DNA of 36,769 bases from an uncultured beta proteobacterium. GTDB taxonomy: Bacteria; Pseudomonadota; Gammaproteobacteria; Burkholderiales; Burkholderiaceae_C. Location: positions 1-36,769 of the forward strand of contig CAIYWD010000223.1 in assembly GCA_903929815.1 (NCBI GenBank), read 5' to 3'. The translations under genes and the position numbers were made by a program. Position 1 is the stretch's first letter. Every line of letters starts with the position of its first letter. Below, piece by piece: positions 5,912-16,323 of this stretch. The notes under the pieces were generated by a model. That model had not been told where the DNA came from and ran no database searches. It was given only the letters and a program-made list of their open reading frames with translations.

Positions 5912-8900
5912 TCAGCCGCATTGCCCCACGTAGCCACAGGCGGTGCAAAAGTCGCAGCCATCTTTGTGAATGACTGTGGCGTTACCACATTCAGGGCAGG
6001 GTTTGCCGGCCATGGTGCGGCTGACTTCACGTTCTTCGGGGGTATCCAGCACACCCATGTCGCGCAGCGGATAACCCTGCTGGTTCAAAATGCCCAGCAT
6101 GGCGTAGCGGTGAATGATGAGTCGGGCAATGTAGGCCACGGTTGAAGGCCAGGTTTGCTGACGACGTTCATGGTGGGGCAGTCCCGGCACAAAGGCCATG
6201 AAGTGACCCAAAGGCTCGGCATAGTTCAGCAACTTGCGCAGTTTCATGCCAATCCAGGCGGGGTCTATCACCCGCATGTCTAGTGACAACAATCGCGCCA
6301 ATCCGTCCATGGCTCTGGGGTAATTGCCACTAAAACCCACTGCACAGGGGCGGGTGATGACGCTGCCATCTGTGTTGGGCAAATTGACTTCCTTGAGCGT
6401 GACTGTGAAAGCCTCACCCGTAGCAGGGTTGTTCACATCGACTGCCCAGGCTAAAGTGCCAGACGTGCCGGTTTGTGGTTCGCCCTGGCTGAACATGGCA
6501 TCGATCACCGGTGTACTGGCGGGTTTGGTATCTGATGAACGCAGTTTGTTGTTGGCTGCCAATTGTTCACAACGCCAGCGAATGACCGCAGCCGTGGCGG
6601 CTACCACGCCGGGGAAAAGTCGCTTTTCACCATGCGGCGGAAAAGGCATCTCAAAAGCATGTTCTTCACTCACCGTGGTTAAGGCATCAAGTTTGAGTTG
6701 CAGCCAGGCGGGGTCATTGGCGCGCAAGTCCATCGACAGCGTTTTGGCCAAAGCGCCCAGTCCACGCGGTTGCTCAGACCCATTGACCCAGACTTCAAAG
6801 GGTTGGAGTGCGCCGCCTTCTTCTAACGAAATCTCGCCAATAAACAAGGCAAAGTCGCCAAAGGGGTGATGCACCATGAATGTCCATGCGGGGTTGCCAC
6901 CAGGCAGTTCTGGGCGACCTGGCCAACGCAATGACTGCAACACGGGTGCGGGGAGTCTGTCAAGCGACAGGCGGTGGTTGGCACTGTCAATTTGCAGCGG
7001 CTTGGCTGCGCTGGGGGCAGGCGATACGCTCAGCACAGACCCCAAAACACTGTTCGGACGGTAGGTGGCCAAGCCCTTTAAGCCGGATGTCCAGGCCTGG
7101 GTGTACAAATCCTGAAATTCTTCATACGGGTAATCCGCAGGCACGTTCACGGTTTTGGAAATGGCAGTGTCAATAAAAGGGGCTACGGCGGCGACCATTT
7201 CTTCGTGCGACTGGGCGCTCATTTCAAGAGCGGTTACAAAAGCGGAGGTGAGTGGAGCATCTGCGCCTTTGAGGTGGCGATACAAGCGCCAAGCGTGGTC
7301 TTCAACTGCGTATTCCTTGAAGCTGCCATCGGCCATGCGTTTTTTGCGGGTGTAAGTCCAACTGAAAGCGGGTTCAATCCCGTTGCTGGCGTTATCGGCA
7401 AAAGCCAGGCTAATGGTGCCTGTGGGGGCAATGGACAGCAGGTGAGAGTTACGCAAGCCATGTTTACGAATGCGGTCTTTCAATTTTATGGGCAGACGGG
7501 AAGCAAAGCTTGGGCCACTCAAGTACAGGTCGGCATTGAACAACTCAAAAGAACCCCGCTCTTGTGCCAAATCCATTGATGCACTGTAGGCAGTGTCGCG
7601 CATCAGTTTGGAAATATGCTGCGCCATGTCTCTTGCTGCCTGTGTGTCATACCGCAAATTAAGCATGACCAGCGCATCGCCCAGCCCTGTAAAGCCCAGA
7701 CCAATGCGACGTTTGCTGTTGGCTTCATGTTGCTGTTGTGGCAGTGGCCAGACGGTGACATCGAGCACGTTGTCCAGCATACGAACAGCCACTCGCGCAA
7801 CGTCGGCAAACGCCGTTTCGTCAAAGCGTGGGGACTCAGTGAAAGGGTCCGTTACAAAGCGCGTGAGGTCAATAGAGCCTAAGCAGCAGCAGCCATAAGG
7901 GGGCAGGGGTTGCTCGGCACAGTTATGCACAAACAGGCCGTTGGCATCAAAAGCGTGGACATCTTGCACGCTCACATCAAACACATCTTCTTCGCCTGCG
8001 TTTGTCAAAGAGGCTACCGTTGCTGTAAAACGCTCAAGAGCCAGTCCGCTTTGGCATGTTGTCAAAAAAGCCTCAAAACGTGCGGATTTTTCGGGATGGC
8101 TAAAGCCTATCGTTTGCGAAAAACGAATGATATTGTCGTCACGAAGGGTCAGAACGGGGGTATATGCTTCTTGGTGGTCTATGGCCGATACCATGCCCAA
8201 GCGCAGCAACATGCGTTGAATGGCCATGAGCACCGTTACATCGGCAAACTCCAGTTGCAAACTTGCCACGGGGTCTTCTTGAATCTCCCCCATGGCGTTG
8301 AACAAACCGCGCAGCAGCCCTTGGTAATACATAGATGATCCATGTTCCATTTGTGGCGTGATGGTCATCTGAGGAAATTTGATGCCCATGCGACTGGCCA
8401 GCTCCATGAAATCCATGGGAATGTCGATGCAGCTACCCTTGCCCAGCAACATTCCTATCAGAGAACCTTCTTCTTGTGTCCAGGGGCCATTCCACTTGGG
8501 CAAACTGCGGTGGTTGTGCAAAACGATTTCGTCACCAGGCTGTAGCACACCTGCTTGCACCCAGTCGTATTGCATCCCTTCAGACGAGGTCTGACGCACG
8601 GTACGAACCAAATGATCTGAAGTGAGTTTGAGCGAGTAACCCTGACAGGTGCGAAGTTGCAGCACCGGTTTGCGCCCTGTTGCAAAAAAGCCATGTGACA
8701 CAACAGGGTAAGCAAGACCATCTACCACAGCAGAAAATTTCCACTGCGTCAACTCGCTCACCTGACGGATACCATCGCTCGTCGTCACCCAAGTGTCAGC
8801 CGTCACACAGGGGTTGGTGCTGGCAATGGTTTCGCAGTACGATAAATTATTGTCACGGTTGATTTGATCCAGAAACAATACGCCTGGCTCGGCGTGGTCG

Positions 8901-9715
8901 TAGGTGGATTTCATGATTTGATTCCAAAGCATGCGTGCTTTGAGTTTTTGATAGACCCATGCGCCGCTCACCTTATCCTGATAAGCGCCCGCCTCTTTTT
9001 TGTCTTTACCAGGTTCAGCGTGATGCACTAGGGCAAAGTCACTGTCGGACTGAACCGCCTTCATGAAGTCATCGGTCACGCCCACTGAAATATTGAAATT
9101 TTTCAGATCGCCCTTGTCTTTGGCGTGGATAAATTCTTCAATATCAGGGTGATCGCATCGCAACACACCCATTTGCGCACCACGCCGGGCACCGGCAGAC
9201 TCTACCGTTTCACACGATCGGTCAAACACGCGCATGTAACTCACAGGCCCTGATGCACTGCTTTGCGTGCTGCCCACCCAGCCACCGCGCGGACGAATGC
9301 GTGAAAAGTCGTAACCCACGCCACCTCCACGGCGCATGGTCTCAGCCGCTTCAGTCAGGGCGGTATAAATGCCTGGGTGGCCGTCTTCCAGATGAGAAAT
9401 GGAATCACCCACGGGCTGCACAAAACAGTTGATGAGCGTGGCAGACAGTTGCGTGCCTGCAGCAGACTGAATGCGACCTGCTGGCAAAAAGCCGGCTTGC
9501 AAAGCTGCCAAAAATCTGGCTTCCCAATCTTGTTGCTGATCGGGTTTTTCGATGCTGGCCAAGGCATGTGCCACACGCTGATTAACATCAGCAATGCTTT
9601 GCTCAGTGCCTTTGCTGTATTTTTCACGCAAGACCTCTTCGCTGATGGGTTGGGGAGCAAGTAACGTTGTGGTCGTGGTGGAATTTGTGACTGTTTCAGT
9701 GGTTAGTTCTAACAT
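5912..9715 (-). CDS. nrdJ: Adenosylcobalamin-dependent (class II) ribonucleoside-diphosphate reductase containing an intein
   Basis: [43 protein letters not shown]^[21 protein letters not shown]-like repeats, C-terminal [15 protein letters not shown] zinc motif; ORF extends to 9760 but MLELTTETV at 9715 is the likely start. Confidence 0.95.
7922..8809 (-). other. In-frame intein (296 aa) within the RNR
   Basis: Block [14 protein letters not shown], block [10 protein letters not shown] (TxxH), degenerate LAGLIDADG blocks [11 protein letters not shown] and [12 protein letters not shown], block [24 protein letters not shown] followed by Cys+1. Confidence 0.95.
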
Positions 9716-9809
9716 GATTGTCCCTTGAAAAAAGTGAGGAAATAGCAGAGTAGCGGGCATGAAAGTGTGATGATTTACTTCACTATTTCAATGCCAAATT
9801 GCCAAGATA

Positions 9810-11248: not shown

Positions 11249-11273
11249 GCCGTTATTTTAAATGGGACTTGAC

Positions 11274-13064
11274 ATGAGCTTTCGTACCGCTGAACCAGCA
11301 TTAAAAGAAGTATTGGATTCCATCGCCAGGGGTGAAACCCAACTGCCCGATTTCCAGCGTGGCTGGGTTTGGGACGACATGCACATCAAGTCTCTCATTG
11401 CCAGTCTTTCATTGTCTTACCCCATTGGGGCTGTTATGTTTCTTGAAGCGGGTGGCGTTCCTTTCAAGCCCCGCTTGTTTGAGGGCGTGAACATCAATCC
11501 TGCGCCGGTACCCAGAACACTGGTACTGGATGGCCAACAGCGCCTCACATCCATGTATTTGGCGCTGAGAAGTGGCATTCCGGTCAAAACCAAGACCGAA
11601 AAGGGCATGGACATTTTGCGTGTTTACTTTTTGGACATGGCCAAGTGTCTCGATCCCACAGCCGACCGGGAAGAAGCGGTTGTCTCGGTATCTGAAAATC
11701 TTCGGATCACATCGGATTTTGGTCGCAGTATTGACCTCGACCTCAGCAGTCATGAGTTTCAGTATGCGAATCGCATGTTTCCAATCTCACTGATGTTCGA
11801 TACTGCGCCCTGCATGGAATGGGAAACTGGTTTTTTGACCCACTATGCCTACGAACCAAGCGCCACGCAGTTTATGCAGCGTTTTCGCAATGAAATCTGG
11901 CTGAGATTCCAACAGTTCAAAGTACCGGCCATTGAGCTATCCCAAGACACACCTCGTGAGGCAGTTTGCCAAGTCTTTGAAAAAGTCAACACGGGTGGCG
12001 TCACATTAACCGTGTTCGAACTGATGACCGCCACTTTTGCAGCAGAATTGGGCGACTTCCAGTTGCGTGAGAACTGGGCTGCCCGTTTTGCCCGCCTGAC
12101 TGAAAGACACACTATCCTTGAAGCAGTTGACGGTACCAGCTTTCTGACAGCCGCAACGTTATTGTCAACCTATGAAAAGCACCTGTTGAACGGCACACCA
12201 GTATCATGCAAGCGAGCTGATGTTCTTCGTTTGGAGCTTGCCACCTTCAACAACATTGAGGGTCGGCTTGAGGATGGTTTCAAAAGAGCTGCTGAGTTAT
12301 TGGCAGAAGAAAAAATCTTTGATGTTCGCAGCTTGCCATACGCTACCCAACTCATACCTCTTTCTGCAATCTGCGCTCAATTGTCAGACAAAGTGACCCA
12401 GCACGGTATCAAACAAAAGCTCTTAAAGTGGTTCTGGTGTGGTGTTTTTGGTGAGCTATACGGCGGGGCCAGCGAAACCCGCTTTAGTCTTGATCTGCCT
12501 GATGTCATCGCCTGGATCAACGGCGGTAATGAACCTCGAACAGTCCGTGATGCCAGTTTCGCGCCAACGCGCCTTTTGTCGCTACAGTCTCGCTTGGCCG
12601 CCGCCTACAAAGGCATTGCCGCTCTGCTGATGAAAAATGGTAGCCGAGATTTCATCACGGGAACCCCCGTCGACCTGAATAGTTATTTCAATAATGCCAT
12701 TGACATTCACCATGTTTTCCCACGTACTTGGTGCGAAAGGCAAAACATCTTGCGTGACAAATGGAACAGTGTGGTGAACAAGGCCCCTCTGGCTGCAAGC
12801 ACCAACCGATACATCGGCGGCAAAGCACCGAGTGTGTACCTGAGCCGAATCGAAAGGGACACAAAAGTTTCTACCGACACTCTTGACCAATTCCTACAGT
12901 CGCACGCTATCCCGGTGGGTGACCTGCGTAACGATGCCTTTGATTTGTTCATTGCCAGTCGCGCCTCGGAATTGCTCAAGTTAATCGAGACCGCCACCGG
13001 CAAAGCCATATCTGGACGAGACAGTCAAGAAACCATCCAAGCCTTTGGTGCTGTTTTGGTGTGA
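11274..13064 (+). CDS. DUF262 / DUF1524 (GmrSD-like) domain protein
   Basis: LPDFQRGWVWDDMHIKSLIASL, LVLDGQQRLTSMYLAL (DUF262), C-terminal IHHVFPRTWCERQ (HNH-type DUF1524-like). Confidence 0.85.
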   Translation: MSFRTAEPALKEVLDSIARGETQLPDFQRGWVWDDMHIKSLIASLSLSYPIGAVMFLEAGGVPFKPRLFEGVNINPAPVPRTLVLDGQQRLTSMYLALRSGIPVKTKTEKGMDILRVYFLDMAKCLDPTADREEAVVSVSENLRITSDFGRSIDLDLSSHEFQYANRMFPISLMFDTAPCMEWETGFLTHYAYEPSATQFMQRFRNEIWLRFQQFKVPAIELSQDTPREAVCQVFEKVNTGGVTLTVFELMTATFAAELGDFQLRENWAARFARLTERHTILEAVDGTSFLTAATLLSTYEKHLLNGTPVSCKRADVLRLELATFNNIEGRLEDGFKRAAELLAEEKIFDVRSLPYATQLIPLSAICAQLSDKVTQHGIKQKLLKWFWCGVFGELYGGASETRFSLDLPDVIAWINGGNEPRTVRDASFAPTRLLSLQSRLAAAYKGIAALLMKNGSRDFITGTPVDLNSYFNNAIDIHHVFPRTWCERQNILRDKWNSVVNKAPLAASTNRYIGGKAPSVYLSRIERDTKVSTDTLDQFLQSHAIPVGDLRNDAFDLFIASRASELLKLIETATGKAISGRDSQETIQAFGAVLV

Positions 13065-14562: not shown

Positions 14563-16323
14563 ATGAAAAATTCTTTGTACTTTGGTGATAACTTGGACGT
14601 CTTGCGCGAATCGATCAAAATCGAAAGTGTTGATCTGATCTATCTCGATCCGCCCTTCAACAGCGACCGCAACTACAACATTTTGTTTAGTAGCCCTAAA
14701 GGGCAATCAAGCGAAGCCCAAATTACAGCTTTTCGAGATTCGTGGCACTGGGGCGAGCAATCTGAGCGTGAATTTGGCGAAATTGTTAGAGGCAGTAATA
14801 CGCATGTTTCTGAAATTATGCAGTCACTTCGGCGCTTCCTCGGTGAAAACGATCTGATGGCGTACACGACAATGCTTGCAAATCGCTTGCTTGAGTTACA
14901 TCGTGTGTTAAAACCAACTGGCAGTCTGTACTAGCATTGCGATCCAACAGCTTCACATTATTTGAAAATCATCCTAGACGGTGTTTTTGGCAAAGAAAAT
15001 TATAGAAATGAGATTTCATGGCTACGGTCCCAACCTAAAAGTCACAGTACCATAAATTTTCCAAATTGTCGTGACATCATTCTCAGTAACCGTTTAGACC
15101 CCATCACAGCCATCCGTCGCGGATATGGGCATCCAAGCTGGGAACGCGGGCATCTTGCCCGCAGCGGGCGGGACGCCCGCGCTCCCAAGCAACACATCAC
15201 GGAATGTGGTCAGGGTGTCTAAACGGTTACCATTCTCAGATATACCAAAACTGAGAAGGCTAAATTTATTAAGGTTTACGGCAAATACAACCAGACGTAC
15301 TTAGACAATTTTTATAAGTACACAGATAAGGACGGGCGCAAGTATCGACTTGGAGACATCACGAATCCAAATAAAAATCGTCCAAATCTCACTTATGAAT
15401 TTTTAGGTGTAACTCGCGTGTGGCGATGGACTAAAGATCGCATGCAGAAAGCATTCGACGATGGTTTGATATACCAGTCCAAACCAGGGACAGTACCACA
15501 AGAAAAACGGTATCTTGACAGTATGTATGGACAACCGACAACCGATAACTGGGACGATATAGAGCACTTGCATGGTAGCAGTGATGAATTTTTAGGCTAT
15601 CCGACACAAAAGCCTTTAACTTTGTTGGAACGTATCATCACTGCAAGCAGCAATGAAAACGATGTTGTTTTAGAACCGTTTTGCGGATGTGGTACCGCTG
15701 TGCATGCGGCTCAAAAGCTAGGGCGCAACTGGATCGGTATCGACATCACCCACCTTGCAATCAGCTTAATCGAAAAGCGCCTAAAAGATGGTTTTGCAGG
15801 CATCGAATTTGAAGTTTTTGGCACACCAAAAGATCACGCCGGAGCTACAGACCTAGCGGCACGTGACAAGTACCAATTTCAATGGTGGTCATGTAGCCTA
15901 GTGAACGCACAGCCATATCAGGGTAAAAAGAAAGGCGCAGACAGCGGAATTGATGGACTGATCTACTTTCAAGATGACAGTACCACGCACAAGAAAATCG
16001 TAGTCAGTGTCAAAGGCGGCGATAACATCAGCGTCGCAATGGTGCGCGATCTTGCACACGTTGTAGCACGTGAAAAAGCTGAAATCGGCTTGTTTGTCAC
16101 GCTTGCACAACCAACAAAACCCATGCAGACGGAGGCGATCAAGGAAGGCTATTATTTAAGCCCGATAACTGGTAAGTCGTTTCCAAAGCTGCAAATTTTG
16201 ACAATCGAGGGCTTGTTGGCAGGGACAGAAAGGGCACTGTACCCAGATTTGTCCCAAGGATCGACAACTTTTAAAAAATCGAAAGTCGAAGAGAAAACCG
16301 TGGATCAACAGAAGATGTTTTAG
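14563..16323 (+). pseudogene. Site-specific DNA methyltransferase with C-terminal Mrr-like nuclease domain, disrupted by an amber codon and a MITE insertion
   Basis: N-part YLDPPFNSDRNYN, LKPTGSLY*HCDPTASHYLK; C-part LEPFCGCGTAVHAAQKLGRNWIGIDI, then GADSGIDGLIYF...KKIVVSVKGG; stop at 14932-14934 and element at 15087-15230. Confidence 0.9.
15087..15230. mobile_element. MITE-like element family M3 (GC-rich palindromic core) inserted in the methyltransferase gene
   Basis: TIRs (G)TAACCGTTTAGAC / GTCTAAACGGTTAC; 9-bp direct repeat CATTCTCAG at 15078-15086 and 15231-15239. Confidence 0.92.

Follow-up and report, generated by a model that had tools for sequence, protein, structure and literature searches.

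Inteins at the active site of ribonucleotide reductases (RNR) are no novelty: the insertion site treated here and the intein family are already known, as is the preference of inteins for active sites, and such inteins are common in bacteria and phages. The class II enzyme NrdJa of Azotobacter chroococcum NCIMB 8003 carries a LAGLIDADG_3 intein at residues 321-690 (PMC4465626). A further report (PMC4071816) lists the allele rir1-b, an intein of the RNR large subunit, in 55 bacteria including Burkholderiales, with Acidovorax, Polaromonas, Rhodanobacter and Methylococcus among the hosts. The A. aeolicus R2 intein separates catalytic residues of its RNR, has been shown to splice and improves iron loading (PMC8772380). 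The motif N-X-C-X-E round the catalytic cysteine, a catalytic finger-loop motif, is common to RNR of classes O, I and II, and 3175 of 3347 class II sequences carry it as NPCXE (PMC9669993).

The DNA analysed here (the window) is a stretch of 36,769 nucleotides from an uncultured beta proteobacterium. Its intein lies, like that of A. chroococcum, in a class II RNR, matches LAGLIDADG_3 and begins at residue 318 as against 321, a comparison made by residue number only. The A. chroococcum intein differs in having about 370 residues with an endonuclease, and class I NrdAB is present in its host strain as well. The window intein is probably allele rir1-b, whose insertion site would then be the one seen here. 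We hold it highly probable that it is a cis-splicing intein of class 1 in nrdJ, belongs to the RNR thiyl-cysteine family, was horizontally acquired, is now immobile and is spliced for dNTP supply.

Host gene and anatomy of the insert

An earlier note on this DNA, made from the sequence alone, had placed an 888-bp intein at 7922-8809 in a class II RNR, interrupting STNP^CAEQP, with Cys+1 as the active-site thiyl cysteine and a predicted spliced product of about 970 amino acids next to a 296-residue intein. All of this was borne out, the coordinates exactly to the base.

Positions 5912-9760 of the minus strand form a single frame of 1282 codons without a stop, the intein included, with Met16 (9713-9715) as the likely start of nrdJ. 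In profile searches the product matches NrdJ_Z (TIGR02504, E 2.9e-171) and PF02867 (E 2.8e-127). With the NPCXE finger loop and the NrdJ_Z profile both present, in a genome without NrdB, it can be identified from its sequence as the precursor of an adenosylcobalamin-dependent class II RNR, NrdJ. A phmmer alignment of its flanks with NrdJ of T. maritima (1xje, E 7e-64) gives two stretches that abut precisely at residue 322 of that chain, which is the Cys of STNPC and carries the thiyl radical in T. maritima. The C-terminus (with CPECGN) resembles by description the zinc-finger domain of PMC5704485; such a cysteine-rich C-terminal zinc finger is present in most class II RNRs. No B12 riboswitch was found near nrdJ within the window.

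The intein (7922-8809, minus strand) corresponds to precursor residues 318-613, in frame between NP and CAEQP. A comparison with intein profiles, as the earlier note had proposed, gave matches to Pfam Intein_splicing (E 5.8e-10) and LAGLIDADG_3 (E 1.3e-5), and the intein-end models TIGR01445 and TIGR01443 match the precursor protein. Block A (8771-8809, minus strand, 13 residues) is recognized by TIGR01445 and opens with Cys1 (TGT, 8809-8807); C1, V2, T3, D5, W7, T10 and G13 are invariant in an alignment of ten family members. The same alignment has T63 and H66 of block B, the TxxH motif TSDH (8612-8623, minus strand), as invariant, together with H285 to G291, V294, H295 and N296. Blocks F and G (7922-7984, minus strand; 21 residues) are recognized by TIGR01443 and end in the terminal His-Asn (7922-7927), Asn296 being AAC at 7924-7922.

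On the extein side, the junction S-T-N-P (8810-8821, minus strand) is read directly from the sequence and has Pro at -1 because the NPC motif demands proline there. Cys+1 (TGT, 7919-7921, minus strand) is identified as the thiyl-radical cysteine by the alignment to T. maritima Cys322 and the NXCXE motif. The N-P-C-A-E triad is split by the intein, with Asn at 8813-8815, Cys at 7919-7921 and Glu at 7913-7915. Intein-free relatives read through the corresponding 14 residues uninterrupted. The predicted spliced product has 986 amino acids from the first ATG and 971 from Met16.

Modelled with AlphaFold (pLDDT 88.5, pTM 0.90), the intein is predicted to have a Hint + LAGLIDADG fold. The best Foldseek matches of the model are TliVMA, PI-SceI and PI-PfuI, all inteins that bear an endonuclease (E as low as 3e-14), and mini-inteins of GyrA, DnaB and RecA are also matched. 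An in-frame insert without a stop might in principle be a constitutive domain of the enzyme; the Hint fold, the intein blocks, the split catalytic triad and the intein-free homologues refute this for practical purposes.

The residues of a class 1 intein are all present (C1, T63, H66, H295, N296 and C+1), together with the Hint fold in the model, and the standard class 1 pathway would suffice for the anatomy seen. As an intein, the insert would be translated whole within the nrdJ precursor. Cys1 would attack the carbonyl of Pro-1, giving a thioester, and Cys+1 would take over the N-extein in a branched intermediate. Cyclisation of Asn296 would then free the intein, and an S-N shift would leave STNPCAEQP. 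The finger loop with N-P-C-A-E would form only after splicing, and the same cysteine would then carry the thiyl radical. Since the triad and the free cysteine arise only on splicing, the unspliced enzyme should be inactive. Pro at -1 is expected to slow the first splicing step and counts against this explanation. Pro likewise occupies position -1 in the Mth RIR1 mini-intein, a tool of protein ligation.

Elsewhere in the window, two plus-strand ORFs (14563-14934 and 15418-16323) match positions 1-50 and 134-220 of an N6/N4 DNA methylase profile; in the second the methylase part is followed by an Mrr-like domain, and the methylase gene is possibly broken. A possible defence gene (11262-13064, plus strand) codes for 600 residues whose N-terminal domain is of the GmrSD type.

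The endonuclease remnant and selection

The dead endonuclease and the wide, already published occurrence of the family are the points at which the analysis goes beyond the earlier note. Alignment with same-site relatives places a LAGLIDADG homing endonuclease remnant at 8036-8476 (minus strand), in which the acidic residues are replaced by Lys124 (8438-8440) and Met173 (8291-8293). Its motifs are LLGKG and LFNAMG, against LLGDG and LFDADG in the relatives, and some 80 residues are missing in comparison with these, about 60 between the motifs and about 20 further on. The same-site inteins of relatives have 361-384 residues and, almost without exception, motifs that resemble LLGDG and LFDADG. 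In the nearest relative (L032, KTt_bin-1310) the intein is 91% identical and has the motifs LLGKG and LFNVRG. The closed genome of a sister lineage (G039) has LLIGWG and LLDVCG, and the ends of its deletion differ from those in the window. The catalytic residues of splicing are intact in three genomes. Taken together, the sequences indicate a homing endonuclease that is dead while the splicing residues stay conserved, which is new here.

Comparison of the window with L032 gives dN/dS values of 0.05-0.13 for the exteins, 0.19 for the splicing part and 0.33 for the endonuclease remnant, all from small counts. Both parts of the intein lie below neutrality in this comparison (p 3e-5 for the splicing part and p 0.002 for the remnant, again from small counts), and the splicing region appears to be under purifying selection. 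With the same small counts the remnant is significantly different from the exteins (p 0.002) but not from the splicing part (p 0.31). The splicing-part value, somewhat above that of the exteins, counts against the preferred explanation.

If the intein no longer spliced, nrdJ would be dead or give a split enzyme. The decayed endonuclease domain would fit this, as would the identities between the two nearest genomes, 91% for the intein against 98% for the exteins. We consider it very improbable, given that three genomes retain every catalytic residue of splicing, that the exteins are under strong purifying selection, and that a dead gene in a cell without other RNR would mean no de novo dNTPs. 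An intein that still splices remains the preferred reading.

Two ideas on the course of decay were dropped. A tie between endonuclease decay and a sole RNR was suggested by the window genome (G000), L032 and G039. It is countered by G332, which has an intact endonuclease and neither NrdB nor a second large subunit, and by G391, with decayed motifs (GGG, DAHG) yet NrdB present. A single decay event common to G000 and G039 was also rejected: their exteins are sisters, but the inteins are 46% identical and the deletions differ. A clade of these two inteins is neither established nor ruled out by the AU test (p 0.31). The G391 intein (L062; LLVGGG, FDAHG) is another lineage with decayed LAGLIDADG motifs, in a genome with NrdB.

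Distribution and relatives of the intein

Within the window's genus the family occurs in 8 of 90 genomes, that of the window among them. Intein-free alleles, a check proposed in the earlier note, are present in most congeners, 25 of them reading NPCAEQP unbroken. Within the order (Burkholderiales) there are family matches in 29 of 399 sampled genomes. The NrdJ inteins of G034, G006, G094, G118, G084 and other Burkholderiales share the site and the blocks at 41-55% identity; they differ in having mostly 377-384 residues and intact LAGLIDADG acidic residues, and most of their hosts also have NrdB. A diverged second type, which sits at the same NrdJ cysteine in nine genomes from the order, carries Gln at its end (FNGLxTGQ^C) and not His-Asn. 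Examples are L038:2386-3537 (G101, FNGLATGQ^C) and L045:3513-4634 (G120, FNGLVTGQ^C), and G289 has one as well.

The disagreement between the intein and extein trees speaks for horizontal spread by homing, because G034 and G006 fall among relatives without the intein in the extein tree and a single clade of the G000, L032, G039, G034 and G006 inteins is rejected (AU p 0.0017, with long branches present). The intein would thus have arrived by homing and would now be immobile and vertically inherited. A recent transfer could not be argued from base composition, the GC content of 51% in the intein and 55% in the exteins not being telling.

In SPbeta the bnrdE gene, annotated with a putative intein (NC_001884, 122225-123379), is interrupted at this thiyl cysteine (SNL^CSE) by an intein homologous to that of G034 along 100% of the query (tblastn, E 2e-20). 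It differs in its class Ib NrdE host, in NL^C in place of NP^C, in a C-terminal TGN in place of VHN and in its length of 385 residues. Further homologues are found in NrdE of a Miltoncostaea plasmid (SNL^CSE) and of an uncultured phage (SNL^CTE). SPbeta was reached only with the full-length G034 relative as query; the window's own intein gave no match in phage records and one weak match in plasmid records.

A scan of viral contigs gave 54 loci, of which 48 were read. Of these junctions, 44 read N[PV]^C directly before C-x-E and three read NPC^SE, and the last one, that of L103, lacks a resolved downstream end. It is plausible that phage RNR genes form a reservoir of the family. The three NPC^SE members (L133:2501-3556, L134:2501-3613 and L144:2501-2881) appear to be inserted one residue downstream, with Ser at +1 after the thiyl cysteine, and L144 is a mini-intein of 127 residues. 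Another mini-intein of the family on a viral contig (L143:2501-2932, NP^CVE) has 144 residues, too short for an endonuclease domain.

The apparently sole RNR of the cell and its probable need for splicing

The genome to which the window belongs is a metagenome-assembled genome (MAG) of 2.6 Mb in 283 contigs, 97.5% complete. The profile search gave one PF02867 match; no PF00268 (NrdB), no PF13597 (NrdD) and no other RNR large subunit were found in this 97.5% complete MAG. A second RNR could sit in the approximately 2.5% of genes that the MAG may lack; none was found in the closed genome of the sister G039 either, which has one large subunit, bearing the intein, and neither NrdB nor NrdD. In two further genomes of the order, G332 and G127, the only large subunit likewise bears an intein at this site, and neither NrdB nor NrdD was found. 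The earlier note had proposed that dNTP synthesis by this enzyme depends on splicing, which a second, intein-free RNR would make dispensable. A search of the MAG for such an enzyme found none, and the proposal is strengthened: splicing is very probably essential in this bacterium, since the MAG yielded neither a further large subunit nor NrdB or NrdD.

A sole RNR could also make the intein a regulator, with conditional splicing (in response to redox state, metals or temperature) gating the only dNTP supply. The conserved splicing residues beside a dead endonuclease would agree with this, as would the constraint on the remnant (dN/dS 0.33, p 0.002, small counts), and there are precedents in the iron loading improved by the A. 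aeolicus R2 intein (PMC8772380) and in the conditional splicing reported for DnaB of mycobacteria (PMC6195587). We regard a regulator as unlikely, since the alignment shows neither an additional conserved pair of cysteines nor any other sign of sensing, an intein at an essential catalytic codon can be retained without any benefit, and most intein-bearing relatives of the order have a class I backup. Slightly less likely still is an immobile intein kept as a post-translational dNTP switch, the dead endonuclease remnant being part of its sensor or fold.

For the immobile intein that is spliced for dNTP supply, which we prefer, a sole RNR would make splicing a requirement for de novo dNTPs. The splicing residues would have been retained after the death of the endonuclease because imprecise loss of the intein at a sole RNR should be lethal.

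The general picture of inteins is unchanged, and the combination of a sole RNR, a thiyl Cys+1 and a dead endonuclease is neat and will not surprise a specialist. The locus is nevertheless a clean natural case in which the catalytic radical residue is the splicing nucleophile and no alternative RNR was found in the cell. Loss of splicing would here equal loss of de novo dNTP synthesis, which would be a simple reason for splicing to outlive the dead endonuclease.
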